Below, in pieces: positions 14,366-51,626 of a stretch of 64,000 nt of DNA. A program made the translations under genes and the position numbers. The DNA comes from Bryopsis sp. KO-2023 (Eukaryota; Chlorophyta; Ulvophyceae; Bryopsidales; Bryopsidaceae). Location: the NCBI GenBank assembly GCA_030272585.1, contig BSYQ01000004.1:4588001-4652000 (forward strand), written 5' to 3'. Every line of letters begins with the position of its first letter. The first letter of the stretch is position 1. Below the pieces are notes generated by a model that was not told the origin of the DNA, ran no database searches, and saw only the letters and a program-made list of their open reading frames with translations.

Positions 14366-14405
<40 letters not shown>

Positions 14406-26073: not shown

Positions 26074-26817
26074 CTACAGGGGCTGTAGCCCCGCCCGCCG
26101 TCGAATTCGTAAACAAATCCGAATAACGGTCGCCGTTGATCTATCGATACTTGTGGTGGTGAAAGCGATAATTCTGGGATTGGTGGTGATGAAGGTGAAA
26201 AAGCATCGGAAGAAAAAGCGCATGGTCAGCAGGATCAGCACATCGACCAAATGCTGGAGGCACTTTTCACGGAAGGGAATCTCGAGAACAGGCTCGGTGG
26301 AGTCAGACGTGGCGGTAATTGGTGCATCACAAGTCTGCAAAAATAATATTCGAGCTTTTGATGCTGCAGATTTGTTTTTTGGTCTTTTGAGTGAACCAAA
26401 AATTTTTCAAATGAAAATGCATGAATTGATCGAACTTTGATCTACAGGGCTGAAAAATGGTGATCGATATCGCAAGGAAGGATAGAGAAAGGGGATTTAA
26501 AAATCACTTTTTTCTTCATTTCCTTTCCCCCCTCTTTTTGTTCCACTCTGTAGTCTCAATTCAGATTTGATTTTTTTCTTTTCCCTCCCTTTTTCTCAAA
26601 ATCAAGTTGTTTTTTTGGTTTTTCTGTTTCTCACCTCGTAGACAATTTTATCGAATGAATGGGCGATCTGCCCATAATAAGGCCCGTAATAGTAGCCATC
26701 TCCTTTGTCGGTGTCGATATCACTCTTAATCTCCCTTCTTGTGACGAGCCCACACATCAACGCTGATGTGATGATACCCGCAAGGATGCAAAGCATGATG
26801 CTCCTGGTCAGACACAT
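26074..26817 (-). CDS. Small membrane protein of unknown family, copy 1 (2 exons)
   Basis: Exon 1 is 26635-26817 and exon 2 is 26074-26334; the donor follows VYE and the acceptor precedes TCDAP, both phase 0, giving 147 residues. Residues 7-25 form an N-terminal membrane segment (IMLCILAGIITSALMCGLV). A Gly/Tyr-rich stretch then carries YYYGPYYGQIAHSFDK (42-57). Exon 2 holds a long hydrophobic region with arginines (VDVLILLTMRFFFRCFF, then IIAFTTTSID) and a basic tail (ICLRIRRRAGL). I do not recognise the family. Two relatives at 37,807 and 50,846 keep the same intron position, donor and acceptor context and YYG-x-IAH-x-FDK motif, which argues for a real gene. The upstream 26,940-27,090 stretch is similar to the region upstream of copy 3. 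Confidence 0.72.
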
Positions 26818-27488
26818 TCAAAACATTAATTTTAATATTTTCACATTAATTGTTCGATTATTTAATTAAAGGCAAGAAGAAAAAGAAAACAAAACGGTGA
26901 GGAGCATTCCTGGTCTGATCTGAAAAAAAACCACCACCAAAAGAATCCACCTGTGGCTGGTTTAATTATTATTCCAATTTAAGTAAAAACGTGATTTTTC
27001 TGGTAGTCTGACTGGTGTCACAAGGGACCAGCGCATAATATCCTGACGGGTTGATTATGATCACTCCAATTTCCCCTTTTTTTCTATCTGGAGATGAAGG
27101 AAAGGAGATCATTCTCATTTCCATTCATATTTGTTATTCCATTTTTTTTTCCAAGGGAAGACAGAAAATCTAATCATATCGTAATTGCGCGCGCTTCAAT
27201 TAACGGTACAACAAGGAACGAGAATTCGATCGGATGTCAATCAAACCCAAAGGCCAGGTAACCCATTGAGGAGCTGGTGAAAGGGCTGCAGCAAATTTTG
27301 CAAATTTTTCTCGTGCAACTAACCAACTTCAATTTCAAGGTGGGGGTTCGGTTGGATAAACGATTGGAAAGAGCGATTTTCCTGGAGGGTCCCGACCCAG
27401 TTTCTTCTTAGTAGTTAACCTTTGGGGTCTAGATATAGATATAGATCTAGATAGACTTCTATATAATGTAGACATTAGGATGTCATAT
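26818..27488. promoter_or_regulatory. Upstream region of small-membrane-protein copy 1
   Basis: Shares two short blocks with the region upstream of copy 3 (51,680-51,800): AATCCACCTGTG followed by CCAATTTAA, and a GATCA-TTCC-like block ending in CCAATTTCCCCTTTTTTT. Conservation of these blocks between duplicons is consistent with a promoter, but no TATA box or start site can be fixed. No gene is found in this stretch. Confidence 0.35.
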
Positions 27489-27572
27489 CTGAGTCAGCCT
27501 ATAACACAGTTCCTTGAGTGGGCTGCACTTGGCCTTTTGGCCTTGTGGAAAATAGTTTCAATTTTAAACAAT
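27489..27572 (+). repeat. Dispersed short repeat, copy 3
   Basis: CTGAGTCAG, TGGGCTGCAC, GGCC-TTTT-GGCC and the TTTCAATTTTAA end are all present. Confidence 0.65.
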
Positions 27573-27631
27573 ATTGGGGAGTCAGGTGGGATTATGTATG
27601 TAATAAGAATAATTTCTACATTCGGGTCTGA

Positions 27632-27699
27632 CAGAGGCGGATCCAGGGGGTGCGCAGGACCGCGCGCACCCCCCTCTCTGGAATCCTGGATCCGCTTTG
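27632..27699. mobile_element. hAT-like fold-back / mini-element
   Basis: 68 bp bounded by CAGAGGCGGATCCAGG and the complement of CAAAGCGGATCCAGG. Inside, GGGGGTGCGC faces GCGCACCCCC, making a nested hairpin. Terminal CAGAGGCGGATCC-type repeats are typical of many hAT elements. The flanking 8-mers GGGTCTGA and AGGTCTTG share the core GGTCT and could be a worn 8-bp target duplication. Confidence 0.5.
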
Positions 27700-28028
27700 A
27701 GGTCTTGAAAACAGAAAGAGCAAGGGAAAAAAAGGGACTGCCCCTCCTCTCAGAAAACAAGTCGGAACATACGGACTCGTTCGAGATCAATCAACCGACA
27801 GATTGCGTGCTCCTCGGAAAAACAGGTCGGAACATAAGGACTCGTTCGAGATCAATCAGCGACGGATTGCGTTTTCGTCACGTTGAAAGACGTCGACGCT
27901 TTTTCAAGCTCCTGTTGGAATTTCTGGAAACAGAGGGGTGTTCTTACCGGTCTTTTCCCATTTTTGATGTCGACGACGATACGTTCGCTCCGAATAACAA
28001 AGGCACTCTCCGCAGTTGGCACACACAA

Positions 28029-28100
28029 AGGGCAAGAAAGCGAAGAAGAAAAAATGCGCGACGAAAGTTAAATAGGGGGCGCCGTCAACGTCGGTCTGCC
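28029..28100 (+). promoter_or_regulatory. Promoter-like module, duplicon copy A
   Basis: GGCAAGAAAGCGAAG, then TTAAATAGGGGGCGCC, GTCAACGTCGGTCTG, followed about 30 bases on by TGTCTGACTGGAGG. The same blocks with the same spacing recur at 39,905 and 52,641. TTAAATAG at a fixed distance from a conserved block resembles a TATA-type core promoter. The reading frame downstream in this copy is closed. Confidence 0.4.
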
Positions 28101-28199
28101 AGAATTACGAGAAAAATTTCATTTTGTCTGACTGGAGGAGGCATTCGATTCTGGCAACACCAATTTCCTTGTGGAGGGGTTTGCAGAAGTCGGGTTTGT

Positions 28200-30815
28200 G
28201 ATTATTCTCAGCCATGCTGAAAGCCCACCTGTGTAAATGAATGGCAGGGTGGTTAGTGCAACTGTTTTGGTTGGATATGGAACCACTTTTAATTAAACCC
28301 ATCTGGATGCTGTTTCACACTCCATTCCCAGCAACATTCATTTTTTTATGGTGGGAAGCCATGAAATTTGTTAGGAGGCTCACTCAGCGTCCCAATACTC
28401 TTTTTGGATGGGGTTCTTTCCCTAAGAGAAAAAGAATTTGCTCAATGCGAAGTAAAGAAAATGAGTTTTTTCCTCTCACGCCCGTGTGAGAAAATGGCGG
28501 CTTAGTAAGCAGTCGGTTGTTCAGTGCGATTGAGAGAGTGAAATGAGTCATAAGACTTTGTTCCTTGTGGATGGTAATTATGTTTTTGGAGGGTGGGGTG
28601 GAGAACATTTCCTAAACAAATAAATTAAAACAAAACAAACAGTTGGCATTAAGTCTGAGACACTACAGAAATCTTCCGAAACGCCCTTGATTACTTCCCC
28701 GTTTCAAGGAAACTCAAAAGTCGCAATCTCTCAAATGCATTTGTTCAGTTTCATCATCCCACACAAACCAAAATAAAACTACCCCAACGATATCGAAAAC
28801 AAAAAAACAGAGGTGAAAAAGCTAATCCAGTATTTCTTGATCGTCTCTCTGACCCTCCCTGTTCCCGCCACCAGACAATTTACAAGCCTTCGATTAACCA
28901 TTATATCAAAATTCAAACCTTCCAATCCCTCCTCAGAAAACTTGTCAAAATGTTTTCTGAGCATGCCCACGGGGTCCTTCAATTTTTCCTTTACTTTTTT
29001 TTGTTTTTCCTCTCAACATCCCCCCAGCTTTTCCTTCAGCATAAGGAGAGACCTGGATCCATTGGAGCAGCCGCTGCTTTCCTCGATTTGGGAAAACAGA
29101 TCCAGATACACTCCTAAAAAACAGGAAGGGCCCCACGCCTCCTTTCAATTTCCACCCTTTGCCACCACCATTTCCTCTCAATTCATTCTTCCTCAACATT
29201 TTCAGATGGAGCAGCAGCAACATCCCTAGAGGAAAGCTCTCACCGTCCCTCTCCCTCAGTAAGACACTGGGACAGGCAAAATCTCCTCAGCACAGCAGCG
29301 AATTGTCTTAAGTGATCGACAAACCCCTCAGCAAGCTGGTTTGCCGACTCCATGAGCACCTGCTAGGAGGTTTTCTTCAACAAGCCCTTGTCCATTAACA
29401 GAACTCTCCATCAAAACCCCAGCATATCTATCGCCTCCTTCCTGGTGCTGGAGTTTCTGGCCAGGTGGATGAATGAAATCAGCGGGAGGTTCTCCCCTGA
29501 ATTCTGGGAGTGATCTCCTGAACTGATTAAAGCCTCCTCTGGAGTTTCAGCTCCACCCGTTTGTTTGGGTTCAACCGGGATCCCGACAGGAAAACCTGCA
29601 ACTCCAACAAGAAAAAAAGAACTAATCAAACGAAGCATTTCCAATAACGAATGTCAACAATGAACAATCAATGTGGAATTCTGCTTTTTCTCTATTTCCA
29701 AAGCGGACAGGAAGTAATGTCGGTCGTTGTGATGAGCAGTTCTAAGAGTTCAGTTCGTTGTTATGAAATCTGTCCAAGAGACAAAAAGTGTGGTCTTGTT
29801 ACCTCTGGAATGCGATATCCAGCTGTTGTGCATTGCCACAACCCTTCATGACTGTGCTGCACACGAAACAGCGTCAGGGCAGAATTCATCACCACCACTA
29901 CCACATTCCCCCATGAGCTTCAATGCTTTCAACCACTGAGGTGGGTCAGCTCTTCCATGTTGCGTAAGCCGCCAACAGAAAGCTACAGCACACCCTGCAT
30001 GGATGGGGATACGTTCAAGACATTCTCTTTTTCCCTCAAGAATATTGACTCGCTGTATTTACCTGTTGGGTTCTGTCAGTTCTCCTGTTGTTGATGCTCC
30101 CTGTCACCCCTGGCGATCGGCATGAGCTTGCCTTTGACATGGCACTCTGGAATCTGACTGCTGCAGGTTATGTTGCCCAAAAGTAGAACTGGCCTGGCCC
30201 AACCCCACCAGCCATCCTGTTTGGATCGCTGGGTGCGAATGCACTTGAGCGCTCCCATCAACCACTTCACATTCCTTGATTGATACTGGTAAAAAAGGGC
30301 CGATTTACATTCATGAAGGGCAGAACTCAACCCAGCACTATCAAGGCTCATACACAACTTGAGTAGCACATCTGCGTTCTGATCCTGACCGGCATTGGAC
30401 AACCCAGACATAGCTTGCTGTATGTATGTCTGGAAAACTAGAGAGGCCTGAGAGCGCCCAGCTGATGTACAAAGTCACCTGACAATCGACATAAGCTTCA
30501 GCATCAGGATCACCTAAGTCAATTAAGACAAAGAATTTGCGAATTTGGAGTCGAGCATGAGAGAGGCTGGTCGACGAACCTCAAGTGAGCGTCCTTCTTG
30601 GCCCTGTTGCAAAGAAGGGGAGCCACCTCTCTGGGGATGGCTCGAAATCGAAGGAAATAATCCATTTGACCAGGGGATAATTCCCAGCACTGTTGGTTCA
30701 ACGAATGTGAAAGGGGTGCTGGGTGGCGGCTGGAAAGAAATGTCAGCAAGCGACTCACGCGAATCGTTTTCAATCCACCAATAAGCAAACTCCGGTGGAA
30801 TTGTATGGCTTGCGC
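28200..30815. repeat. Duplicated block D, copy A (decayed)
   Basis: About 95% similar by eye to 40,150-42,800 over long stretches (compare 28,620-28,810 with 40,357-40,560); 52,850-53,640 is a more diverged partial copy. On the minus strand the copies share protein-like strings, such as one starting with a hydrophobic, signal-like segment (SSFFLVGVAGFPVG) at about 29,640 followed by PEEAL and ENLPLISFIHLARNSS, and another, GLSSALHECKSALFYQ, near 30,330. The frame in this copy closes at the place where the 41-kb copy reads on. I recognise no family. Confidence 0.7.
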
Positions 30816-31373
30816 CCCACTCGAATACTGGACTGGTGGAGCATCCGAGAACACCTGTGGTTTTTGTAGATCTCGACTGTCCCCTCATAGATCAATCAAT
30901 CTCATCACTAAACGCTTGCGAAATCTGGTGGGATTTTCCATGATTCATTACGTAAGTGATGTTAATGTATACAAGAGAAAGCCCCCTGGTTGAAACTGGA
31001 TGCTTGGAATAGGAAGGTACTTTCTGCACATCACCTTGACAGCCAATTTCATTTGCCCACAGGTGGAATGAATGAATGAATGTCTACCTGTTCATAAACG
31101 TATGCATGGAGATTCACAGTCTGGAAAAACCTGCTTCCAGGAGCTGGAGCCATCGCTTTATCTGGACAATTTTCCATTTATCAGCACAGTAATTTTTAGT
31201 CATCTAAACAATAACATTTGAAATCCCATTCGATGTGCATGCCAAACAAACAAAGAGACAAGTTGTTTGCTGTCCAAATTTTTTTACAGAATTTTTTGGA
31301 CTGTTCTAAGCCACCCCCTTTTGTCCCCCTCACTCTTCCCCCCGCCCTGTCATTTTTTTTGGGGTGTCCAGTC

Positions 31374-31415
31374 GATCGCCGCCGACCTCTCTTAAATCGG
31401 AGGTTGGTGACGATC
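31374..31415. repeat. Long hairpin element 3 of 7
   Basis: Same arms as element 1, with one extra loop base. Confidence 0.75.
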
Positions 31416-32232
31416 CACCACCCACGATCCCCAACCATTTGGGAAGAGGAGAGGGACTAGGGGGTGGCCCACTATAAAAAAATTCCGAATTTTTTTCCTT
31501 TCACAAACACATTTTCATTCCTTGTCTATTTCCAGTCTTCCCAAGAGACATCCGCACTTCATTCACCAATTCCTTTCCCACAGATATCCGCATTTTTTTT
31601 TCCAACAAATTCTTTTTCCCCAACGTACATTTTCCCATCTCTTCTCATTTTTCACTTCTTCAACCTCATTTCTTTTCCGCAGTCACTTTTTTTTCTTTCC
31701 CAAAAAAACATTGGCTTTTACAAAAAGCCACCATGATAATAAGTCAGTGCTCAGTCTGACTGTGAACACTCATCCCAGCAACACCCTTCTTCACTTAACC
31801 GTTCAACCGAGGTCCCACCCTCTTGTGTCCCCCGCCCACTTCCCCCCCTCACCCACTTTCTTTGTTTTTCGGGTTTCGGGGGGGCAGAAGGACTAGAGGG
31901 TGAGCCTCGGAAAATCAATTTTTTTCTACTTTTTTTCCCTTTTTTTTTGGTGCGACAATTAAACCCCATCATCTTTCTGGAAAGACGCCGCCCATCAGAA
32001 ACATGCTTCACCCAGCACAAAAAGATTTCCTCAGAAGAAAATCAGGCTTATCAAAACCCCCAAGTCGGTTTTCTTTGACACATGAAACTGTGTCGCTCCA
32101 TTTCCCCTCACTTCTCTCCTTTTCCAAGCTGCTTCTAATTATCTTTCTCACAAATCCCACCCTCCCCAGCCCCCAGCCCACTTCCCTCCCTTACCCCTTT
32201 CAACACCCTTGTTGAGGTGCGAAGTCCAGTCC

Positions 32233-32270
32233 ATCACCGCCAACCTCCACAATAGGAGGTTGGTGATGAT
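32233..32270. repeat. Long hairpin element 4 of 7
   Basis: Same type as element 2, with a single stem mismatch (GGTGATGAT in the right arm). Confidence 0.75.
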
Positions 32271-33085
32271 CCACCACCCATTTTTTTTTCGTTTTGGGTT
32301 TAGAGAGGGAAGAAGGGCTGGAGGGTGGGAAATGTGAGGTGTTGCAGGAAATTTTTTTCTTTCTTTCCAATGCAGTGCTTGTCATAGTTCATAGCTTGAT
32401 AGCTCCCGCCAGTGAATATCCAAATCCCAGTTTTGCCCTCCAAACCACACCCCGGATTCAACTCGACAGGAAAATCCTGCCCTCTTTATCCCCAGCCCTC
32501 CTTTTCAGCTTTTCCAACAAGAACTCCCTCTGCTGCGATCTGAAAGCCAAAACTTGACTGATGATCCTCCAGTCAGACATAGCAACACCCTTTCGACCAC
32601 ACCCGGAATTTGTGTGTCTGATTTGCCATCCAGAGAATTCAGTCTTCTGCAAAGCATGTTGAAATTCTCATCGAGTGTTGATTCCAACAGGTCGTACATT
32701 TTCCTCCTTTGCTTTTCCATGATCATCTCAATCCTGGTAGCGTCTTGTTTCTCAGCGACCCCCCTGCATTTTTTTCTTCTCAAAAATGCATAAAACCCAC
32801 TGAGGGTCAACAACATCTTCGCCCCCCCCCCCCCCTCCCTTTTTTTCCCAAATGAAAAATGAACAAATAAAGAATAGAAAAATAAAGAATAAAGAATAAA
32901 AAAGTATACTTCTGTTCCCTCACGGACTCCATGGTGAAAAAAGCCAGGTAAAAAAAATAAGAAAGAAAACCCAGGAGCCATGCATAATAACTCTATTTTC
33001 GTTGTTGCGCTTGAATCCCCTCCACCAGGATCCAGTTGAAAGAATGCTTCTCCTCCACCACCATGTTCTAAAATCTTAACCGAAA

Positions 33086-36000
33086 TTAATGAAGTTTTCC
33101 TCTTGATTCCCACCATCCCAATTTTGCCCTCCAAATCACACTCCGTTTTGATTTGACAGAATATCCTGCCATCCAAATCCAGAATATGTCTCCTCCTCCG
33201 GCATGTTCTAAAATTTTAACCGAAATTAATGAAATTTTCCTCTTGATTCCCACCCCCATCCCAATTTTACCCTCCAAATCACACTTCGTTTTGATTTGAC
33301 AGGAAAATCCTGCCATCCAAATCCAGAATATGTCTCCTCCTCCGGCATGTTCTAGAATTTTAACAGAAATAAATGAAGTTTTCCTCTTGATTCCCACCCC
33401 CATCCCAATTTTACCCTCCAAATCACACTCCGTTTTGATTTGACAGGAATATCCCGCCATCCAAATCCAGAATGTGTCTCCTCCTCCGGCATGTTCTAAA
33501 ATTTTAACCGAAATTAATGAAATTTTCCTCTTGATTCCCACCCCCATCCCAATTTTACCCTCCAAATCACACTCCGTTTTGATTTGACAGGAAAATCCTG
33601 CCATCCAAATCCAGAATATGTCTCCTCCTCCGGCATGTTCTAAAATTTTAACCGAAATAAATGAAGTTTTCCTCTTGATTCCCACCATCCCAATTTTGCC
33701 CTCCAAATCACACTCCGTTTTGATTTGACAGGAAAATCCTGCCATCCAAATCCAGAATATGTCTCCTCCTCCGGCATGTTCTAAAATTTTAACCGAAATT
33801 AATGAAATTTTCCTCTTGATTCCCACCATCCCAATTTTGCCCTCCAAATCACACTCCGTTTTGATTTGACAGGAAAATCCTGCCATCCAAATCCAGAATA
33901 TGTCTCCTCCTCCGGCATGTTCTAAAATTTTAACCGAAATAAATGAAGTTTTCCTCTTGATTCCCACCATCCCAATTTTGCCCTCCAAATCACACTCCGT
34001 TTTGATTTGACAGGAATATCCTGCCATCCAAATCCAGAATGTGTCTCCTCCTCCGGCATGTTCTAAAATTTTAACCGAAATAAATGAAGTTTTCCTCTTG
34101 ATTCCCACCATCCCAATTTTGCCCTCCAAATCACACTCCGTTTTGATTTGACAGGAATATCCCGCCATCCAAATCCAGAATGTGTCTCCTCCTCCGGCAT
34201 GTTCTAAAATTTTAACCGAAATTAATGAAATTTTCCTCTTGATTCCCACCCCCATCCCAATTTTACCCTCCAAATCACACTCCGTTTTGATTTGACAGGA
34301 AAATCCTGCCATCCAAATCCAGAATATGTCTCCTCCTCCGGCATGTTCTAAAATTTTAACCGAAATAAATGAAGTTTTCCTCTTGATTCCCACCATCCCA
34401 ATTTTGCCCTCCAAATCACACTCCGTTTTGATTTGACAGGAAAATCCTGCCATCCAAATCCAGAATATGTCTCCTCCTCCGGCATGTTCTAAAATTTTAA
34501 CCGAAATTAATGAAATTTTCCTCTTGATTCCCACCATCCCAATTTTGCCCTCCAAATCACACTCCGTTTTGATTTGACAGGAAAATCCTGCCATCCAAAT
34601 CCAGAATATGTCTCCTCCTCCGGCATGTTCTAAAATTTTAACCGAAATAAATGAAGTTTTCCTCTTGATTCCCACCATCCCAATTTTGCCCTCCAAATCA
34701 CACTCCGTTTTGATTTGACAGGAATATCCTGCCATCCAAATCCAGAATGTGTCTCCTCCTCCGGCATGTTCTAAAATTTTAACCGAAATAAATGAAGTTT
34801 TCCTCTTGATTCCCACCATCCCAATTTTGCCCTCCAAATCACACTCCGTTTTGATTTGACAGGAATATCCCGCCATCCAAATCCAGAATGTGTCTCCTCC
34901 TCCGGCATGTTCTAAAATTTTAACCGAAATAAATGAAGTTTTCCTCTTGATTCCCACCATCCCAATTTTGCCCTCCAAATCACACTCCGTTTTGATTTGA
35001 CAGGAATATCCTGCCATCCAAATCCAGAATGTGTCTCCTCCTCCGGCATGTTCTAAAATTTTAACCGAAATTAATGAAATTTTCCTCTTGATTCCCACCC
35101 CCATCCCAATTTTACCCTCCAAATCACACTCCGTTTTGATTTGACAGGAAAATCCTGCCATCCAAATCCAGAATATGTCTCCTCCTCCGGCATGTTCTAA
35201 AATTTTAACCGAAATAAATGAAGTTTTCCTCTTGATTCCCACCATCCCAATTTTGCCCTCCAAATCACACTCCGTTTTGATTTGACAGGAAAATCCTGCC
35301 ATCCAAATCCAGAATATGTCTCCTCCTCCGGCATGTTCTAAAATTTTAACCGAAATTAATGAAATTTTCCTCTTGATTCCCACCATCCCAATTTTGCCCT
35401 CCAAATCACACTCCGTTTTGATTTGACAGGAAAATCCTGCCATCCAAATCCAGAATATGTCTCCTCCTCCGGCATGTTCTAAAATTTTAACCGAAATAAA
35501 TGAAGTTTTCCTCTTGATTCCCACCATCCCAATTTTGCCCTCCAAATCACACTCCGTTTTGATTTGACAGGAATATCCTGCCATCCAAATCCAGAATGTG
35601 TCTCCTCCTCCGGCATGTTCTAAAATTTTAACCGAAATTAATGAAATTTTCCTCTTGATTCCCACCCCCATCCCAATTTTACCCTCCAAATCACACTCCG
35701 TTTTGATTTGACAGGAAAATCCTGCCATCCAAATCCAGAATATGTCTCCTCCTCCGGCATGTTCTAAAATTTTAACCGAAATAAATGAAGTTTTCCTCTT
35801 GATTCCCACCATCCCAATTTTGCCCTCCAAATCACACTCCGTTTTGATTTGACAGGAAAATCCTGCCATCCAAATCCAGAATATGTCTCCTCCTCCGGCA
35901 TGTTCTAAAATTTTAACCGAAATTAATGAAATTTTCCTCTTGATTCCCACCATCCCAATTTTGCCCTCCAAATCACACTCCGTTTTGATTTGACAGGAAA

Positions 36001-37087
36001 ATCCTGCCATCCAAATCCAGAATATGTCTCCTCCTCCGGCATGTTCTAAAATTTTAACCGAAATAAATGAAGTTTTCCTCTTGATTCCCACCATCCCAAT
36101 TTTGCCCTCCAAATCACACTCCGTTTTGATTTGACAGGAATATCCTGCCATCCAAATCCAGAATGTGTCTCCTCCTCCGGCATGTTCTAAAATTTTAACC
36201 GAAATTAATGAAATTTTCCTCTTGATTCCCACCCCCATCCCAATTTTACCCTCCAAATCACACTCCGTTTTGATTTGACAGGAAAATCCTGCCATCCAAA
36301 TCCAGAATATGTCTCCTCCTCCGGCATGTTCTAAAATTTTAACCGAAATAAATGAAGTTTTCCTCTTGATTCCCACCATCCCAATTTTGCCCTCCAAATC
36401 ACACTCCGTTTTGATTTGACAGGAAAATCCTGCCATCCAAATCCAGAATATGTCTCCTCCTCCGGCATGTTCTAAAATTTTAACCGAAATAAATGAAGTT
36501 TTCCTCTTGATTCCCACCATCCCAATTTTGCCCTCCAAATCACACTCCGTTTTGATTTGACAGGAATATCCTGCCATCCAAATCCAGAATATGTCTCCTC
36601 CTCCGGCATGTTCTAGAATTTTAACCGAAATAAATGAAGTTTTCCTCTTGATTCCCACCATCCCAATTTTGCCCTCCAAATCACACTCCGTTTTGATTTG
36701 ACAGGAATATCCTGCCATCCAAATCCAGAATATGTCTCCTCCTCCGGCATGTTCTAAAATTTTAACCGAAATAAATGAAGTTTTCCTCTTGATTCCCACC
36801 ATCCCAATTTTGCCCTCCAAATCACACTCCGTTTTGATTTGACAGGAATATCCTGCCATCCAAATCCAGAATGTGTCTCCTCCTCCGGCATGTTCTAAAA
36901 TTTTAACCGAAATAAATGAAGTTTTCCTCTTGATTCCCACCATCCCAGTTTTGCCCTCCAAATCACACTCCGTTTTGATTTGACAGGAATATCCTGCCAT
37001 CCAAATCCAGAATATGTCTCCTCCTCCGGCATGTTCTAAAATTTTAACCGAAATAAATGAAGTTTTCCTCTTGATTCCCACAGCCAT
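33086..37087 (-). repeat. Satellite array II: about 28 monomers of 141/144 bp, open for 1,333 codons
   Basis: Each monomer is 141 bp, or 144 bp where an extra CCC is present. All length variants are multiples of three, so one minus-strand frame stays open from 37,087 to 33,086, repeating a 47-48 residue unit (with strings ISVKILEHAGGGD, FWIWMAG and IKTECDLEGK). Variant monomers follow a four-unit higher-order pattern of 567 bp, repeated with added single units. Homology with array I is plain (GACAGGAAAATCCTGCCAT, a following TCCAGAAT, CTCCTCC and GTGTTCT/ATGTTCT). A one-base deletion in the last monomer shifts the frame. Variants among monomers often change the amino acid, which gives no sign of purifying selection. 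It is annotated as a satellite, not as a gene. Confidence 0.95.
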
Positions 37088-37089
37088 CC

Positions 37090-37720
37090 CATTTCCACCA
37101 TTTCTCCTCCACCAGGATCCAGTTCACAAAAAGTGACCTTGCCTTGATGTCCCCTCCAATGCCACCATGCCCTCAGTTGACTGAAAGTTATTTTGCAGCT
37201 CATCCACTCGATTCCGCTGGCCCTCACATGATCCACTCCACAGTAGTTTTCAATTTTCCATGAACATTTTGACGAATTTCACCCCAAAAAAGCCCATCCG
37301 CTTCAATTGTCTCCTCTTCGAACACAGAGTCCAAAGAAAGACTGCCAGCATTTCAAAGTCCCCATTCACATTCACATTCCCCTTTTTTTTTCCCCCAGAA
37401 TCTTTTTTTTTTAATCCCTGACCCCGAAATTGGAAAATAAGGCAGTTCCACTCCATTAATATCCTTGAGTGATTTTTTTTCTTTGTTGGGTTTTTCTTAT
37501 AGAAAAAATAAAAACTTCCCTGACTCTGACCCCGAAATTGGAAAATAAGGCAGTTCCACCCGACTAATCCCCTCGAGTGACTTTATATATTTGTTGGGTT
37601 TTTTTGATAGAAAAAATAAAAAATTCCCCGACCCTGACCCCGAAAATGGAAAATAAGGCAGTTCCACTCAATTAATTTCCCTGAGTGACTTTATCTATTT
37701 GTTTGGTTTTTTTAGGGTAA
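37090..37720. repeat. Spacer with coiled-coil-like fragment and three direct repeats of about 105 bp
   Basis: 37,105-37,300 is similar to 49,740-49,940 and 50,240-50,440 (minus-strand strings like EGQ-NRVDELQN). Then three direct repeats start at about 37,420, 37,525 and 37,632, each with CCCCGAAA-TGGAAAATAAGGCAGTTCCAC, a GAGTGA and TTTGTTGGGTTTTT. This is the triplicated form of the repeat found once at 25.9 kb and about twice at 50.6-50.8 kb. Confidence 0.75.
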
Positions 37721-37806
37721 AAAAAAAAATCCCCCCCCCCCCCCCCACCCCCTCTCCCATGGCCCCTCGGCCCCCCGCCCCCCCCCCCCCCCCCCGAAGT
37801 TTTTTT

Positions 37807-38496
37807 TTAGACCGGCAGATCCAGCTTACGCCGGATATACTGGCAGATTTTGATGGTGTAGAAGGTGGTGACGTCGGTAGATTTGAGGCAGGTGAGCTGG
37901 ATGGCGGTCAGGGTCAATTCGACGGCAAAATTGATCCCCTTGTAGATGGCGAAAATGTTGACGGTGTCGGACCCGGACCACCATTGGTAGAGCAGCCCCA
38001 TCCCCAAACCTTGGAGGAAAGCACAGAGGGTCGCCATGAAGTCGTCAAAGGAGGAAGGGCTGGGCTGGTCAGAATTGACGGTGACGGTGGAAGGAGCCTT
38101 GCAAGTCTACGAACACGTAAGAACATACAAAATTCAGGTTGGGAGCAAGGATTTTATTTCGAGGTGAGAGAAAATCAGATTGCATTATTATTCCATCATG
38201 TGGTTGGCGATTCATCGAAAGGACGAACTTTGAATTGGAATAAGGTGAAAATAATAACACTATTGATTTTACGAACTATTAGATCATTTTTTTTTTCTTT
38301 TGCTTACCTTGTAAACTGGTTTATCGAAGCCGTGGGCGATGGTCCCGTAGTAGCGACCCCAGTAGGTTCCGTCTTCATCCCAAAAGCGCTCCACCACCAC
38401 CTCCTCCTCCCCCTCAGCTCGCTTCACCACGTACAGGAGCATGGACACCACCACCACCAACGCGATGCACATCAAAAAAATCCTGGTCAGCCACAA
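37807..38496 (-). CDS. Small membrane protein of unknown family, copy 2 (2 exons)
   Basis: Exon 1 is 38308-38496 and exon 2 is 37807-38106; the intron sits at the same phase-0 site after VYK and before TCKAP, giving 162 residues. The N-terminal membrane segment is IFLMCIALVVVVSMLLYVV (6-24), then an acidic stretch (EGEEEVVVERFWDED) and WGRYYGTIAHGFDK (46-59). Exon 2 differs strongly from copies 1 and 3 but keeps hydrophobic runs (ATLCAFLQGLGMGLLY; INFAVELTLTAIQL) and ends in a basic ICQYIRRKL comparable to ICLRIRRRAGL. It is the most diverged member, perhaps with a different function. Its 3' side is a C-rich tract of 60 bp (37,733-37,797). Expression cannot be judged from sequence. Confidence 0.7.
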
Positions 38497-38651
38497 AAAA
38501 AAACTTTAGTCGTTTTTTCACAACAACATCAAGGGATTCGGGTAAGCGACCGTTTCTGGGATGACCCATGCAAATATGGCCAGTGATAATTTCTGGAGGT
38601 TTTCCAAAACCAGTTCTTTATTAGTTTATCTTTGAAAAAAAAAAAAAAAAA

Positions 38652-38794
<143 letters not shown>

Positions 38795-38821
38795 GACATT
38801 TGATAATATAGTGGGGTTTTT

Positions 38822-38902
38822 CTGAGTCAGCCCACTAACACATTTCAATAAACGGGACTGCCACTCCACCTTTTGGCATCGTGTAGAACACTTTCAATTC
38901 AA
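38822..38902 (+). repeat. Dispersed short repeat, copy 4
   Basis: CTGAGTCAG, then diverged AAACGGGACTGCCAC, CCTTTTGG and the CTTTCAATTCAAG end. It directly follows the GAAA microsatellite. Confidence 0.6.
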
Positions 38903-39663
38903 GTACAGATATAAACAAATCTTCACAGATTCTACAGGTCAGACCAGCTCCCCATTTTCAACATACCTGAAGAAAATGCCGGCCTTGGCTGAACCCTCGG
39001 TGCACCCCGAGCGCCTCATCGATCCACGTCGCCTGCTGCCACCACCAAATTCATGCTCCATTCTGTAACTGTAAGCACATCAACACTCAGTTGCATTATT
39101 TGGCTGCAGAAATGGAGCAGATTCCGCTGCTGCAAATGACTAACTTCAATTTCGGGGTGGGGCTGACCAATTCCAAGGAAGGGGACAGAACTCCACCCTC
39201 CCTTTTCTTTGTTCCAATATATATATTTTATATATATTATGTTTGTTTTTTTCTGGATAAAATGGGGGGGAGGTGGTGTGGCTGGATTTTGGAGAAAACA
39301 CTCCATGTTTTTTTCTTTTCTTAATGTTGTTTGTAAAGTTGAAAATTCCCCTAAACCCTGACCCCTATATATGTTTTTTAATTTATTTTTCATTTTTATT
39401 TTGGATCATTCAGGCCTGGCACATTCTGTATTTTCCCTGGCAGTTTTTTAAACCATCTAACAAGGCTCTTCAAAAGGGGATTTTTTCCCATACTGTATTT
39501 CGTTGGATAATCGATTCGGATAACCGATTTTTTTCTTGTTCTAGAATTACCCATGTAATTCTGCTCAGCATTTTTCTTAAAACTTCCCCACCCAATTTCT
39601 TCTAAGCCTACTCTTGGGGTTGAGAGCTAACTGTAGACAATAGAATAAAAAGATGCTTTACCT

Positions 39664-39742
39664 CTTGAGTCAGTCTAGAACACTTTTCGTGAACGGACTC
39701 CACTTCGTCTTTTTGGCCTTGTTTAAAACAGTTCCAATATTC
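39664..39742 (+). repeat. Dispersed short repeat, copy 5
   Basis: TTGAGTCAG, CGTGAACGGACTCCAC, TTTTTGGCCTTG. It lies at the same place relative to the promoter-like module as copy 3 does in the previous duplicon, so it was probably duplicated with it. Confidence 0.6.
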
Positions 39743-39904
39743 GAAAACATTTGGGATTCTGTTGAGATTATACACATCCTGACAAGATTTACATATTCGC
39801 GTCTTCTGAAAGCACAGGGTCGTTCTTACCTGTCGTTGCGGCCCATCTTCTTCTCTCACTCGTCGACGATAAGCTCCACGCAAAAGCTCAATAACGCTCG
39901 AAAA

Positions 39905-39979
39905 AGGCAAGAAAGCGAAGAAGAACAAAGGGCGGGAAAAGTATTAAATAGGGGGGTGCCGTCAACATCGGTCTGGCAG
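39905..39979 (+). promoter_or_regulatory. Promoter-like module, duplicon copy B
   Basis: GGCAAGAAAGCGAAG, GGCGGGAAAAG, TTAAATAGGGGGG, GTCAACATCGGTCTGGCAG. An ATG follows at about 39,990 and opens a 22-codon frame (MPDWRRD...) that corresponds to the 48-codon frame of copy C. Confidence 0.4.
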
Positions 39980-40149
39980 TTTTTTCCGCTATGCCCGACT
40001 GGAGGAGGGACCGATTCTGGCACCAGAATCATGTTTTTCTGCGAAAATTCGGCTTGTAGAGGTGGAGGAGGTATTGGGTGCTTGCATAAGTTTGAATCAA
40101 CCATCTCAATTGTTGGAAAAAAGAACCTGCACTCATGATTACTTTCAGC

Positions 40150-42800
40150 CATGGTTGAGAAATGGCAGGATCGATTGTGCAATTGTTTTGGTTGGATATG
40201 AAGACACTGTGAAACTCATTTGAATTGACTTGCTGCCCTGCAACAGGCAGGAAGTCATCAAATTTAGTACTGGGAGGCTGATCAAACACCCCAATACCCA
40301 TGGACTGAATAAAACACACACACACACACACACACACGAAGACTATCTCCTACACAAATGTATTAAAACAAAACAAACAACAGTTGGCATTAAGTCTGAG
40401 GCACTATAGAAATCTTCCGAAACGCCCTTGATTACTTCCCCTTTTCGAGGAAACTCAAAAGTCGCAATCTCTCAAATGCATTTGTTCAGTTTCATCAACT
40501 CACACAAACCTAAATCAAACTACCCCAACGATGTCGAAAACAAAAAAACAGAGGTGAAAAAGCTAATCCAGCTGGATCCATACTGCAGTATTTCTTGATC
40601 GTCAGACAATTCAGAAGCCTTCGATTAACCATAGCCCAAAATCCTGGTTATATCAAAATCCAAACCTTCCAATCCCTCCTCAGAAAACTTGTCAAAATGT
40701 TTTCTGAGCATGCCCACGGGGTCCTTCACTTTTTCCTTTACTTTTTTTTGTTTTTCCTCTCAACAACATCCCCCCAGCTTTTCCTTCAGCATAAGGAGAG
40801 ACCTGGATCCATTGGAGCAGCCGCAGCTTTCCTCGATTTGGGAAAACAGATCCAGACACACTCTTAAAAAACAGGAAGGGCCCCACGCCTCTTTTCAATT
40901 TCCACCTTCCGTCACCACCATTTCCTCTCATTTCATTCTTCCTCAACATTTCCACAGGGAGAAGCAGCAACATCCCTAGAGGAAAGCTCTCTCTCCACCC
41001 CTCTCCCTCAGTAAGACATTGGGACAGGCAAATTCTCCTCAGCACTACCCATCTGTGTGATCGACAAACCCCTCAGCAAGCTGGTTTGCCGACTTCATCA
41101 ACACCTGCCAGGACGTTTCCTTCAACGAGTCCTTGTTCATAAACCCCAGCATATCTATCGCCTCCTTCCTGGTGCTGGAGTTTCTGGCCAGGTGGATGAA
41201 TGAAATCAGCGGGAGGTTCTCCCCTGAATTCTGGGAGTGATTCCCTGAATTGATCAAAGCCTCCTCTGGAGTTTCAGCTCCACCCGTTTGTTTGGGTTCA
41301 ACCGGGATCCCAACAGGAAAACCTGCAACTCCAACAAGAAAAAAGAACTTATCAAACGAAGCATCCCCAATAAAGGATGTCAACAATGAACAATCAATGT
41401 GGAATTCTGCTTTTTCTCTTTTTCCAAAGCCGACAGGAAAGCAGTGGCACAGTGCGATGTTAAACTCCAAATCGTAATGCTGCAGCCATTCCTCGACCTC
41501 AATCACCCGGTCATACCACTGGACATCGCTTGCCTCGGTGATCAAAGCCCCAAACATAGCAATCCAGGCAAGCCATCCTGATGCTCTTGTTTCATAAACC
41601 CATGTGAAATCAAGAAGAGTGCAGCGTTTATACACAAATATCCTTTGTTGGTTGACGGCAGTCGTTGTGATGAGCAGTTCTAAGAGTTCAGTTCGTTGTT
41701 ATGAAATCTGCCCAGGAGACAAAAAGTGCGCTCTTGTTACCTCTGGAATGCGATATCCAGCTGTTGTGCATTGCCACAACCCTTCATGACTGTGCTGCAC
41801 ACGACACGGTGTCAGGGCAGAATTCATCACCACCACCACCACCAAACTCCCACATGAGCTCCAACAGCTTCACTGCTTTCAACCACTGAGGTGAGTCAGC
41901 TATTGCATGCATAAGCCGCAGAAAGCCACAGCACACCCTACCCCACATGGATGAGGATATGTTCAAGATGGAGCACATTCTCTCTTTCCCTCAAGCGTTT
42001 TCAAACAAACGTTGGTTACGCTTCTTCACGCTTTTTGTACCTGGAACGGGTTTATGGATGAGTGCTATTGGGGTATTAGGTATATTTACTCGCTGTATTC
42101 ACTTGTTCGGTGCAGTTCTCCTGTTGCTGATGCTCCCTGTCACCCCTGGCAATGAGCACGAGCTAGCCCATGGCATGGCACCTCTGGGACCTGACTGATG
42201 CGGGTTCCGTTGCCCAAAAGTAGACTCCAAGCCTGGCCCAACCCCACCAGCCATCCTGTTTGGATTGCTGGGTCCGAATGCACTTGAGCATTCCCATCAA
42301 CCACTTCACATTCCTTGATTGATACTGGTAAAAAAGGGCCGATTGACATTCATGAAGGGCAGAACTCAACCCAGCACTATCAAGGCTCATAGACAACTTG
42401 AGTAGCACATCTGCCTTCTGATCCTGACCGCCATTGCACAACCCATACATAACTTGCTGCATGTCTGGAAAACCAGAGAACCCTGAGAGCGCCACGGATG
42501 TCCAAAGTCATCTGACAATCGATCATAAGCTTCAGTATATGGTGATGGATCAGGATCACCAAGGTCAATTAAGACAAAGAATTTGCGAATTTGGAGTCGA
42601 GCATGGGAGAGGCTGGTCGACGAACCTCAGGCGAGCGTCATTCTTGGTACTGTTGGGAGCAGCCTCTCTGGGGACGGCTCGGATATGTATGTGGACAAGG
42701 GACCCAGGGGATGAATAATTTTCAGTCTTGTTGGTTCAATGAATGGGAAAGGGCTGCTGGGTGGCGGCTCGGAGGAAATGTCAGCTATTGTCTTGAGCGA
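40150..42800. repeat. Duplicated block D, copy B
   Basis: Collinear with 28,200-30,815. On the minus strand 41,045-41,635 stays open for 196 codons, containing WLAWIAMFGALITEASDVQW, VIEVEEWLQHYDLEF, the hydrophobic FFLVGVAGFPVG and PEEAL...ENLPLISFIHLARNSS. Other shared strings are HECQSALFYQYQSRNVKWL near 42,330 and a PPPSSPFPF string near 42,750. Together they suggest the remains of one or more multi-exon genes that were duplicated and then decayed; no splice chain links them convincingly. Confidence 0.65.
41045..41635 (-). pseudogene. Protein-like remnant of unknown family in block D
   Basis: A 196-codon open stretch whose counterpart at 29,300-29,650 is only partly open. The C-terminal half (VPVGIPVEPKQTGG, PEEAL, LISFIHLARNSS, DMLGF, SANQLAEGFVDH) is nearly identical between copies. 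An acceptor-like TTGCAG lies before GTTTTCCTG, so it could be an exon. No domain is recognised. It is called a remnant because the paired copy is interrupted. Confidence 0.3.
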
Positions 42801-43341
42801 ATCGTATGAAACCCACCAGCGACATTCGCAGACTCCAGAACCGCACAGTTTTTGCGCCACCCAAGTACTGGACTGGTGGAGCATCCAAGAACACAATCCC
42901 TCACGAACCAATCAATCTCATCAATGAACGCTTGGGACGTCACCTCAACTGTCAATTCCATCCGTCCACATGTACAGGTCGAACGAATCAATGAATGTCT
43001 CTGCGTGAATGTGAGCACTGCCATTCAGCCTCCTTCTGGCAGCTGTTAGCAGGCCCTGGTTCCACCTACGATCCCACAGGGTTGCAGCCAGAGGGTTGAT
43101 TTCATCTGAACCTCCACCAGGTTTTGGAGCCTTGTGGTAAGAAATATCACACTGAATCAACAAAACCATGTTGGATTTTGCAAAAAACGAAATCCCAATT
43201 GATGTGCATGCCAGAAAACAAAGAGAAGCGTTGTTTGCTGTCCAATTGTTTCACAGGATCCAAATTTGGATTGTTTTAAGCCACCCCCTTTTGTCCCCCT
43301 CACTCTTCCCCCCACCCTACCCATTTTTGGGGTGTCCAGTC

Positions 43342-45154: not shown

Positions 45155-45164
45155 CGTCGGAATG

Positions 45165-47770: not shown

Positions 47771-47777
47771 TCCGACG

Positions 47778-49260
47778 TATAATGTTCATCTTTTATCTTT
47801 CCCCAGCTTTTTTGTGACACTCCTTCCTTGCAGAATGTATGCATAACTGTTTTCTGACCCCAAGCTCTCAATCAGTCCCTATTCCGTTTTCCTTCCTTTT
47901 TTGAACTGAAAAATTGAAAATTAAAAAATCATAAAAAAAAATATATATATATATATCTCTGTTCCCTCACGAACTCCATGGTAAAAAGTAAGCATAAAAA
48001 AAAAGAGAAACCAGGAGCGATGAATAATAATTCTTTTCTCTTGCTGCGATTAAATCCCCTCCACTCGGATCCACTCGACGATTGAAACCCTTCCACCTGA
48101 TTCCAGGGCTGCTTTTCCGCTTCCAGAAGCTTCCACCAAAACAAAAACTCCAATACATTTCATTTCCGGACCGCCACCACCGATTTCCATCCCAAAATCC
48201 ATATTGCTTTGCTCCCCATGCTCCCTTTTTTCCGATTTTCCCAAAGGTGCATGAAAAAGCAATCGATTGGCCTTCTCCAATCTTTGTCGTATGGATTCTT
48301 GTTTGTTTTCTCTTGTACTTCTCTTCTAGATTTAATCCTTTCCTTTTCACCCCCCCCCCCCCTTCTTCCAAATCCTGATTGAGGATCCCCTATACTGTTC
48401 ATCTTTTTTCCTTTCCCCAGATTTTTTGTGACACTCCTTCCTTGCAGAATGTATGCATAATTGTTTTCTGACCCCAAGCTCTCAATCACTCCCTATCCCG
48501 TTTTCCTTCCTTTTTTTGAACTGAAAAATTGAAAATTAAGAATCATAAAAATTAAAAATCGATATCTCTGTTCCCTCACAAACTCCATGGTAAAAAGCAA
48601 CCATAAAAAAGAAAGAAAAACCAGGAGCCATGAATAATAATTCTTTTCTCTTGCTGCGATTCAATCCTCTCCACCAGGATCCACTCGACGATATATATAT
48701 AGTATCCACCAAAAACTCGAATACATTTCATTTCCGGACCGCCACCACCGATTTCCATCCCAAAATCCATATTGCTTTGCTCCCCATGCTCCCCATGCTC
48801 CCTTTTTTCCGATTTTCTCACAGGTAAACCTACTGAGGATCGACAATATCTTTTGGTCCCTCCCCTTTTTTCCTTCTCCTCAAGCGCACAAAAACAATCA
48901 ATAAACCTTCCCCAATCTTTGTCACCTTGAATCACAGCATGGCTTCTTTCCTTTGCTTCTTGTCCATAATCATATTCTTTTTTCAAGCCCCCCCCGCCCC
49001 CCCCTCCCCCCTCCCTTCTTCATCGAGGGATACTCTTTTTTTTCATCTTTTTTTTTTTTTTTTCTCCAGGTTTTTGGTGATACTGCATCCTTCAAGACTG
49101 TGTTCATCGATTCCTGACGCCAATTCCATCCCTTTTTTTTCCAACTGAAAAATGAATAAATGAATAAATAAAAAATAGAAAACAAGAATATCCACCTCTG
49201 TTCCCTCACGAACTCCATGGTAAAGGGACTTGCCATAACCATTTTCATCTTTTTTTCATT
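47778..49260. repeat. Tandem array of about 600-bp units (two and a half units)
   Basis: Units start at about 47,785, 48,398 and 49,040, each with TTTCCCCAG, GTGACACTCC(TTCC)TTGCAGAATG, a TTCCTTTTTTGAACTG-like block, CTCTGTTCCCTCAC-AACTCCATGG and CAGGAGC-ATGAATAATAATT. The CTCTGTTCCCTCACG block also occurs at 32,910 next to array II. Minus-strand frames are short and contain hydrophobic low-complexity sequence. Confidence 0.8.
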
Positions 49261-49289
49261 AAATTGAATTCGGTGATGTCATCATTTAT

Positions 49290-50210
49290 TGCTCATTTTC
49301 CCTCGCCATTGAATCTCCAAATCCCATTACTCTATTTCTCCATTCCACTCGCAATCCAGTCTCCAGTCGACAGAGGAAAACCTTTACACACTCGATTCCA
49401 AGCTGCTATTTCTCCTCCAGTATGTTCTCATTCAACAGATCGTCATTTAATTTTCCGCTCAGTTCCTGCATCCACCCATTTCTTCATTCCACTCGCAACC
49501 CAGTCTCCAGCCGACAGAGGAAAACCTTGTCCACCCGATTCCAAGCAACATTTCCTCCTCCTTCATGTTCTCATTCAACAGAAAGTCAATCACGTTTTCC
49601 ACTCAGTTCCTGCATCCACCCATTTTCTCCATTCCAATCCCACTTCAGTCTTTAGCCACCAGGAAAAACCTTTATCCACTCGATTTCCCCAAAAAAATCA
49701 GAACCATGAATAATTTCTTTTCTTTTTTCTTTTGCACTTGATTCCGCTCCACCAGGATCCAGTTGACAAAAACTGCCCCTGTCTCCTCTAATGCCATCCT
49801 GTCCTTGATTGACTGAAAGAAATTTTGCAGCTCATCCACTCGATTCTGCTGGCCCTCACATGCCCCACTCCACAACAGGTTTTTAAGATTTCCCATGAAC
49901 TTTTCAATGCATTTCACCCCAAAAATACCTATCCACTTCATACTATTGTTCCATAATCCGTAAAGAGATTGGCAGATTGTTTTTTCAAAGGCCCCACTCT
50001 TTTCTCAACCTGAGGTATTAATAAACACCATCTTTTTTTTTATCTCATTGCTCCATTCCTCCATTCCACTTGCAATCCAGTCTCATTCAACAGATAGTCA
50101 TTTTGGTAATCCACTCAGTTCCTGCATCCACCCTTTTTCTCCATTCCAACCCCAATCCAGTCTCCAGCCGCCAAGAAAAACCTTTATCCACTTGATTTCC
50201 AAAAGAAAAA
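49290..50210. repeat. Satellite array III: a few highly diverged monomers
   Basis: Three to four units of about 145 bp (49,330-49,690) with CTCAGTTCCTGCATCCACCC, TTCCACTCGCAA-CCAGTCTCCAG, CGACAGAGGAAAACCTT, CGATTCCAAGC and CCTCC-TCATGTTCTCATTCAACAG, and one or two more at 50,050-50,210. GACAG-GGAAAACC...GATTCCAA...TGTTCT aligns with GACAGGAAAATCC...AATCCAGAA...TGTTCT of arrays I and II. These look like old members of the same satellite family. Confidence 0.7.
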
Positions 50211-50470
50211 TCAGAACCATGAATAATTTCTTTTTTCTTTTGCACTTGGTTCCGCTCCACCAGGATCCAGTTGACAAAAATTGCCCCTGCTCCGATGTCT
50301 CCTCCAATGCCATCCTGTCCTTGATTGACCGAAAGAAATTCTGCAGCTCATCCACTCGATTCCACTGGCCCTCACAAGTTTCCAACATTTCCGTGAACTT
50401 TTCAATGCATTTCACCCCAAAAATACCTATCCACTTCATACACTTGTTCCATAATCCATAAAGAGATTGG
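49735..50470 (-). repeat. Duplicated coiled-coil-like segment, two copies
   Basis: 49,740-49,945 and 50,235-50,445 are near duplicates and resemble 37,105-37,300. On the minus strand they read MKWIGIFGVKCIEKF, then NRVDELQNFF-SIKDRMALEE, a heptad-like pattern, and WILVER or its frame-shifted equivalent. This could be an exon of an old gene. No complete frame is found. Confidence 0.5.
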
Positions 50471-50584
50471 CAGATTTGTTTTTTCAAAGGCCCCACTCTT
50501 TTTCACTCTTTTTCTCAACTTGAGATACTAATGAACACCATCTGTTTTTTCCCAAAACATTTTTTTCCCTTGAATTTTTTTTCT

Positions 50585-50800
50585 TTTTAACCCCTCCCAC
50601 CCAAATTTGGAAACTAAGGCATGTCCATACAACTTCTTCCCTGTTTGTATGAATTTATATATTTTTTTGTTTTTTTGTTTTCCCGAAAACCCACTGACCC
50701 CAAATTGGTAAAAAGGAAGTTCCACTCACATTATATTCCCCGTGAGTGCATTTTTATATTTGTTTGGTTTTTTTTCGGAATAAAATAAAAAATCCCCTCC
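50585..50800. repeat. 3'-flanking repeat of about 100 bp, two copies
   Basis: CAAATTTGGAAACTAAGGCATGTCC and CAAATTGGTAAAAAGGAAGTTCC each start a unit that ends in TTTGTTTGGTTTTTT-like sequence. They are the counterpart of the repeats at 25.9 and 37.4-37.7 kb, again just 3' of a small-membrane-protein gene. Confidence 0.6.
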
Positions 50801-50845
50801 CCCCCCCCCCCTCCCCCCTGTTTCATTTTTTTTCAAAAAAGGGGC

Positions 50846-51626
50846 CTATAGCCCCGCCAGCCGCCGGATTTGTAGACAAATCCGTATGATGGTTGCCGTT
50901 GATTTATCGACAGCGGTGATGGTGATGGCAATAATGGTGGGGCTGGCAGTGACGAAGGCAAAAAACGACCGGAACAGAAAACGCACTATGATGTAGATGA
51001 CGACATCCACCAAGTAGGTCGGCCACTTTTGGCGGAAAGAGAGCTCAGGCTCGGGATCAGCAGTGGAGGTGGGGATGACGGGGGCCTTGCAAGTCTGCAA
51101 ACACATAACAATATAAAAAAAAATTAAGGATGTCAGGGATTTTTATTTTTCCAGGTGTGGGAAAATCAGGTGCGTTCCGATTATTAGTGTTGCGGCGATA
51201 TCGAAAGGAAAGAAAGAATTCAACGGGGGTAACGTAGAGGGGCTGAAAATCATGCCTGCAGAATATTTCTATCAAGATCGGGAGAGAGGATCACTTCTTT
51301 CAATTTCATTTTATCCCCCTTTTATATTCGATCATCTTAATGCAAATTTCAGATTCTTTTTCGTTGCTAAACGTGTTTTTTTTTTCCTTTTTCTCGATTT
51401 TTCAGTGTTTCCTTTTACTCACCTCATACACAATTTTGTCAAACGAATGAGCGATGCGCCCATAATAGTTCCCGTAGTAATATCCATCATTGCCGTAGCC
51501 GTTTCCATTACCGTCGCTCTTTTCCTTGGGGATCGTGTCAGTCATTTGGTGGACCAGTCCACACATCAATGCTGATGTCAGCACACCAGCCAGGATGCAA
51601 TAGAGGGTGATCCTGATCAGCCACAT
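50846..51626 (-). CDS. Small membrane protein of unknown family, copy 3 (2 exons)
   Basis: Exon 1 is 51423-51626 and exon 2 is 50846-51094, phase 0, with a GTGAGT donor after VYE and a TTTGCAG acceptor before TCKAP, giving 150 residues. The N-terminal membrane segment is nearly identical to copy 1 (CILAGVLTSALMCGLV). A Gly/Asn/Tyr-rich loop (DGNGNGYGNDGYYYGNYYG) leads to RIAHSFDKIVYE. Exon 2 has LVDVVIYIIVRFLFRSFFAFV, then PTIIAITITAVDKSTATIIRIC and a basic end. It is clearly the sister of copy 1. Conserved hydrophobicity with swapped residues (I/V, F/L) suggests selection on the protein. The two-to-three-helix layout with a basic C terminus facing one side is an inference. Confidence 0.74.

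Follow-up and report, generated by a model that had tools for sequence, protein, structure and literature searches.

A putative orphan family of small membrane proteins in the ulvophyte alga Bryopsis, with a candidate exchanged gene cassette

We analysed 64,000 nucleotides of the Bryopsis sp. KO-2023 genome (public assembly GCA_030272585.1, PMC12509668; C4:4588001-4652000, hereafter the window), which contain three related minus-strand genes (copies 1 to 3). The explanation that we favour, and consider reasonably probable on sequence evidence, is an orphan multigene family of small membrane proteins that has undergone birth-and-death evolution and at least one exchange of a gene cassette. There is little doubt that the family and its gene structure are as modelled here, and its birth-and-death evolution is very likely. 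A sequence-only reading of the window had proposed a family of three copies. Protein searches of the whole genome ruled this out, yielding 25 modelled loci, one more locus with two exons and 23 fragments. The family would have grown by tandem and dispersed duplication, with copies lost to decay.

The family and its gene models

Seven protein queries were run against the alga's own genome (91,088,769 bases in 28 contigs), the one eukaryote genome searched, and the match counts are lower bounds. Family loci and fragments outside the window are labelled L009 to L069. Members lie on contigs C1, C2, C3, C4, C7, C10 and C11; the 26th locus with both exons (C7:3859267-3859715) was taken from the match list only. 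Fragments, defined as loci with at most one exon or, in L014, with a degenerate first exon, were counted by hand from match lists. Several have E above 0.001 and rest on a short motif, and sequence was read for 19 of the 23, the others (C2:130015, C2:3194921, C2:3496562 and C3:7027032) being counted from matches. Twenty fragments are on C2, two on C3 and one on C4, whereas C2 holds none of the 26 two-exon loci, a contrast that was tested statistically. Several fragments on C2 (8.83 Mb) form near-identical pairs that are far apart and in opposite orientation (L027/L028, L040/L041, L043/L044 and L039/L068), as if this contig held large inverted duplications, and C2 may be a chromosome of a special kind. 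In a tree of the 25 models, a single branch separated each of eight subgroups from the rest; type A (L009 to L011) alone was weakly supported (58/76), and the tree carried a warning of long branches meeting.

The earlier impression that no known family is involved holds within the libraries searched (Pfam, NCBIfam, PHROGs, PDB, and viral and prokaryote contigs). Scans of 13 of the 25 models against each of Pfam, NCBIfam and PHROGs gave best E values of 0.0024 (one member), 0.0037 (two members) and 0.0061 (one member), none of them convincing. A 13-member profile found no relative among PDB sequences (best E 0.14). One short peptide pattern each was searched in IMG/VR and GTDB contigs, where 0 of 14 and 0 of 18 stretches were confirmed. 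Literature searches, judged by title or abstract start, yielded no description of this family.

Much of what had been read from the window alone is present in the sequence. The three minus-strand frames share a phase-0 intron at a common codon and a TC-x-AP start of exon 2, together with an N-terminal hydrophobic segment, a loop ending in YYG-x-IAH-(S/G)FDK, later hydrophobic segments and a basic tail. Copy 3 is indeed close to copy 1, and copy 2 is distant (aligned identity 60% between copies 1 and 3 versus 33% between copies 1 and 2). The start codons and the two-exon structure had been misread. The site before the membrane segment is a splice acceptor (CAG/G, phase 2), and each gene consists of three exons separated by two introns, with the true start codon in a mini-exon located 0.95-1.35 kb 5′ of the previously assigned start. 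The previous ATG was rejected as a start because L013 has TTG there and the acceptor occupies this site in all models. Accordingly, lengths given as 147, 162 and 150 residues become 147, 163 and 151 aa for copies 1, 2 and 3. The parts of the three genes are as follows.

27948-28159, minus strand: copy 1 upstream block (28027-28159, with TATTTAA at 28068-28074) and mini-exon 0 (ATG at 27961, ATGGGAAAAGACCG, then a GT donor)
26635-26803, minus strand: copy 1 exon 1, with the last base of the phase-2 split codon, membrane segment 1 and the YYGPYYGQIAHSFDK loop
26335-26634, minus strand: copy 1 intron 2
26074-26334, minus strand: copy 1 exon 2 and stop codon, with a TCDAP start, hydrophobic segment(s) and a basic tail
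39830-40030, minus strand: copy 2 upstream block (39890-40030, with TATTTAA at 39944-39950) and mini-exon 0 (ATG at 39846, ATGGGCCGCAACGACAG, then a GT donor)
38308-38482, minus strand: copy 2 exon 1, with membrane segment 1 and the YWGRYYGTIAHGFDK loop
38107-38307, minus strand: copy 2 intron 2
37807-38106, minus strand: copy 2 exon 2 and stop codon, with a TCKAP start, two hydrophobic segments and a basic tail
52565-52763, minus strand: copy 3 upstream block (52640-52763, with TATTTAG replacing TATTTAA) and mini-exon 0 (ATG at 52581, ATGAGGAGCGAAGAACG, then a GT donor)
51423-51612, minus strand: copy 3 exon 1, with membrane segment 1 and the YYGNYYGRIAHSFDK loop
51095-51422, minus strand: copy 3 intron 2
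50846-51094, minus strand: copy 3 exon 2 and stop codon, with a TCKAP start, two hydrophobic segments and a basic tail

The same architecture recurs across the family. With exon edges set by hand, all 25 models have a phase-2 YAG/G acceptor before membrane segment 1, and the phase-0 intron 2 starts with GT in 23 and ends with AG in 25. Alignment of upstream DNA showed that the upstream block is kept, at a distance of about 1.0-2.2 kb from exon 1 on its 5′ side, in all nine close copies that were aligned. It contains TATTTA, followed by an ATG and a few codons leading to a phase-2 GT donor, and this donor is found in ten of ten close copies, including L012. Used as a DNA probe, the block of copy 2 gave ten matches in 91 Mb, every one of them 5′ of a family gene and on the same strand. 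The block would be a promoter, a 5′ untranslated region or both. Fourteen further upstream regions from other subfamilies were scanned, with L061 left out, using a pattern that itself demanded phase 2 and also returned unrelated candidates. A mini-exon candidate conserved between relatives was found in 11 of the 14: MKHR/MKQR in L021/L059, MCVVCQYVGWGSCSE in four copies on C1, MSVGSLFGVVGMMSK in L066/L069, and three in L037/L038/L065. The candidate in L018 and L067 is weaker, its first codons being common to both and its donor not, and the scan of the L026 upstream region gave no convincing candidate.

The modelled proteins are 113-168 aa long, exon 0 being included for nine models only. Eight residues are invariant in a 13-member alignment (Y38, G40, Y42, Y43, G44, A47, C58 and R134). 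Exon 1 encodes the loop motif Y-x-G-x-YYG-x-x-A, and the last exon starts at or near the invariant Cys and usually carries two more hydrophobic segments and the invariant Arg. A Kyte-Doolittle scan (19 residues, cut-off 1.0 or more) found membrane segment 1 in all 25 models and three segments in 20. N-myristoylation was considered as an identity for these proteins. What we take to be its start motif, M-G-x-x-x-[ST], fits copy 1 (MGKDRS) and neither copy 2 (MGRNDR) nor copy 3 (MRSEER), and this identity was rejected because the N-termini are not common to members.

We suggest that the proteins would insert into the membrane in three passes, starting with the first segment. The Tyr/Gly loop and the Cys would form the conserved working part, probably packing with itself or with a partner, while the remainder diversifies. 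An accessory or recognition component at the cell surface or in endomembranes would be the likeliest role; any specific role is doubtful.

Divergence and selection

The ratio of nonsynonymous to synonymous divergence (dN/dS) was calculated by the Nei-Gojobori method for 24 chosen pairs. It ranged from 0.19 to 0.64 in 23 of them, the comparison of copy 2 with copy 1 giving no value, which supports the earlier suggestion of selection on the protein. For copies 1 and 3, the pair singled out in the sequence-only reading, the ratio is 0.21, with dS near saturation (1.31). The value for copies 2 and 3 is 0.46 and rests on a dS of 1.73. A Fisher test on 13 of the pairs, which are not independent, gave p ≤ 0.016 in 12 and 0.065 in one. 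The claim that the surrounding DNA has decayed more than the frames stands for copies 1 and 3 only, in which the intron is 49% different and the exons differ at 136 of 414 sites (33%). Copies 1 and 2 contradict it, with 81-90% identity in the outer flanks and 33% between the proteins.

Light-harvesting complex (LHC) genes served as a control. They are of the green type (107 exon-level matches to PF00504). One LHC protein of this genome aligned with Lhca-h of PDB entry 6igz, which we take to be from Bryopsis corticulans, across all 264 residues, six of which differ. A piece of another had the multi-domain chain 9vfj as top match, followed by Lhcb-d of 9jzr and by the siphonaxanthin LHCII Bry-Lhcb1 of 8hlv.

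Tandem arrays and the mosaic of copy 1

Tandem arrays with a period of 60 bp or more (a threshold chosen post hoc; periods up to 500 were searched in the window) were surveyed at 26 loci, namely the 25 models and L014, with about 1-1.7 kb of 3′ flank examined at loci outside the window. They were found in the 3′ flank of 18 of the 26 loci and in the 5′ flank of one (L010), and Fisher values for this contrast are overstated because the loci are related. Three of the 18 arrays have fewer than 2.5 copies (L063, 1.8; L018, 2.2; copy 3, 2.4). All such arrays in the window are 3′ of copy 1, 2 or 3:

22555-25585, unstranded: 146-bp minisatellite, 20.8 copies, starting 489 bp 3′ of the copy 1 stop
37416-37735, unstranded: 108-bp array, 3 copies, 72 bp 3′ of the copy 2 stop
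33049-37081, unstranded: 141-bp minisatellite, 28.5 copies, 726 bp 3′ of the copy 2 stop
49334-49685, unstranded: 144-bp array, 2.4 copies, 1161 bp 3′ of the copy 3 stop

At L037, L038, L066, L069, L014, L067 and copy 2 the array begins about 10-90 bp past the stop codon. Array units are related within subfamilies and hardly between them. The copy 1 unit is similar to the units of copy 2, L019 and L020 (77-80%), and the words common to arrays of different subfamilies look by eye like A-runs. With L063 and L064 left out, most arrays have a sense-strand G skew of 0.27-0.70, and the skew is 0.00-0.14 in L037, L038 and the 108-bp type. A control of 29 other loci (87,405 bases) contained no such array except coding repeats in four polyubiquitin loci; this control is not a sample of gene ends because C2 fragments and short LHC stretches, some overlapping or near-identical, dominate it. 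Polyubiquitin units in this genome adjoin without an insert, and a chlorarachniophyte host, in which a diagnostic insert would be expected, was rejected on this ground and on that of the close LHC match to Lhca-h of 6igz.

Copy 1 is a mosaic of two subtypes. A 300-base sliding comparison along its tandem unit followed type B (copy 2, L019 and L020) down to about 28,605 and then type A to about 25,600. Type B resumes past this point through the array and the far flank, to 20,721. Short stretches common to both types, the upstream block included, occur within the type A part, and both types match near 25,350-25,800. The 5′ edge agrees in blastn: counted from exon 1, the match to type B stops at -1804 and the match to type A sets in at -1793. 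The sliding comparison and this edge therefore point to a cassette of about 3 kb of one subtype within a locus of the other, a cassette that includes every exon as well as the upstream block and whose 3′ edge falls, within resolution, at the array edge:

25600-28605, minus strand: putative exchanged cassette in the copy 1 locus, type A inside a type B locus, edges approximate

As read from these alignments, a cassette exchange in copy 1 is highly probable; both the direction of transfer and the mechanism of exchange are presumptive. A promoter-plus-gene cassette would have moved between loci at least once, and the 3′ arrays, mostly G-rich on the sense strand, would be plausible recombination boundaries, with one exchange documented. 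That the arrays have a role in cassette exchange is a tentative suggestion.

Other features of the window include the tandem units in which the genes lie:

20721-30854 and 30817-42894, unstranded: two tandem units of about 10-12 kb, with one copy each
from 43189, unstranded: a third, weaker tandem unit, with copy 3

Minus-strand frames, on the sense strand of the genes, at 28600-31000 and 40300-43000 are alike between units and in L014 and L020, and are possibly the remains of a second duplicated gene. As a second gene of the unit, the four frames at 30079-30474, 42166-42507, 40695-41072 and 41045-41698 had no Pfam match. One frame of the 141-bp array (47 codons per unit), on the copy 2 sense strand, stays open for 1345 residues (33086-37123, minus strand). 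Considered as a gene, it returned three Pfam rows with no stretch passing alone, and it is probably a by-product of a young array. An AAAG microsatellite of 39 units (38637-38794) lies in intron 1 of copy 2, and each stop codon is followed, ahead of the arrays, by runs of C or G (about 26003-26053, 37731-37795 and 50795-50818). The neighbouring genes identified by Pfam (1711-16179 and 56313-60880) are ordinary: protein-only RNase P, pieces of an ABCA-type transporter, an SBF symporter, a sulfatase and a TAF6 C-terminal domain.

Alternative explanations and comparable systems

Several observations weigh against an orphan membrane-protein family evolving by birth and death with cassette exchange. 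Intron 2 starts with TTAAG in L064 and ATAAG in L026 in place of GTRAG, and these two copies may be inactive. Exon 2 dN/dS reaches 0.95 (copy 1 and L011) and 0.74 (copy 2 and L019). The exons and intron 2 of close copies have diverged to a like degree, copy 1 and L009 differing at 18/168 and 47/255 sites in the exons versus 53/292 in intron 2, and in each of the 23 pairs that gave a value dS is larger than the intron distance. This contrasts with the LHC control (six pairs of four genes), in which introns are far more diverged than exons (for example, 1/510 in an exon versus 14/119 in an intron). Patchwise gene conversion is one candidate explanation of the contrast. L037 and L038 on C10, which differ at 21/198 sites in exon 1, 3/259 in intron 2 and 3/231 in exon 2, have on this sequence pattern a patchwise history. 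As for topology, five models miss the threshold for one of the two later segments, and the loop charge is of opposite sign between subfamilies, because of which membrane sides were not assigned. The array contrast depends on a post hoc threshold, with 57-bp arrays just below it in the 5′ flanks of L011 and L012. Eight of the 26 loci have no array of 60 bp or more in the examined 3′ flank, and the control loci are few and partly redundant (17 of 29 are C2 fragments and five are LHC stretches of 0.7-0.8 kb). Only one mosaic is documented.

Some of these points would fit a family that is mostly a graveyard, its former genes decaying and its apparent conservation due to shared descent. The 23 fragments, 20 of them on C2, the non-GT donors of intron 2 in two of 25 models and the highest exon 2 ratio (0.95) are consistent with this. 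However, 23 of the 25 models retain both intron 2 splice signals, the intron 1 acceptor and an open frame, 23 of 24 pairs from several subfamilies have a dN/dS below 1, and the upstream block is retained in ten of ten close copies, so that we regard a graveyard as rather improbable. The same ratios, together with fixed intron phases and residues invariant across subfamilies with differing arrays, argue against the relevant unit being a non-coding transcript that includes the 3′ array, with the short frame secondary. The closeness of the arrays to the stop codon in seven loci and an upstream block as distinctive as the frame would speak for such a transcript, which we nevertheless judge very unlikely.

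It is even harder to credit that a mobile element carries the frames as passengers or as parts of itself. Fragments on C2 are dispersed and near-identical and, read from translated frames, have surroundings in common. A frame beside one of them (L039) looks by eye like the end of a non-LTR reverse transcriptase and has no such Pfam match. But this frame has only five matches in the genome, Pfam scans of window frames (7 + 8 frames) detected no transposase or polymerase domain, and the copies carry introns and were therefore copied as DNA and not as processed transcripts. The proteins could also be secreted or wall-anchored peptides of defence type, membrane segment 1 being a cleaved signal peptide. 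A short N-terminus ahead of a strong hydrophobic stretch and divergence around retained core residues would suit this, whereas two more hydrophobic segments in 20 of 25 models and a single invariant Cys would not, and we consider it unlikely. A bolder extension of the favoured membrane-protein family is a repertoire whose cassettes (promoter, mini-exon, coding exons and 3′ end) are switched by recombination anchored in the 3′ arrays, perhaps serving self-recognition or defence in a free-living coenocytic alga; such switching is improbable.

If expressed, the family would comprise at least 26 membrane-protein genes in a giant-celled alga, unmatched in the libraries searched. Its core signature allows direct searches in other Ulvophyceae, and the 3′ minisatellites with a putative exchanged cassette would offer a testable case of family diversification outside pathogens and immune systems.

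The Bryopsis family resembles a general kind, the lineage-specific multigene families of small membrane proteins that evolve by birth and death, in its tandem clusters, its fragments and its fast divergence around a small conserved core. Unlike the named families of this kind, to which no sequence relation was found, it has a family-specific upstream block and 3′ arrays. Immunoglobulin switch regions, like the 3′ arrays, consist of long tandem repeats next to a gene that are for the most part G-rich on the sense strand. The resemblance is an analogy only, and the skew is slight in L037, L038 and the 108-bp type. The 70-bp repeats of trypanosome VSG genes lie 5′, unlike the Bryopsis arrays, which lie 3′. 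The window is, moreover, interior to its contig (4.59-4.65 Mb of 7.4 Mb), one exchange is documented, and the proteins are unrelated as far as tested. The likeness to VSG cassettes (PMC4858185, PMC8612549) would lie in the transfer of a gene cassette from one locus to another and in a block of repeats that borders it on one side. By analogy, repeat-bounded cassette families would be the nearest working comparison, and one of their defining features is touched here.

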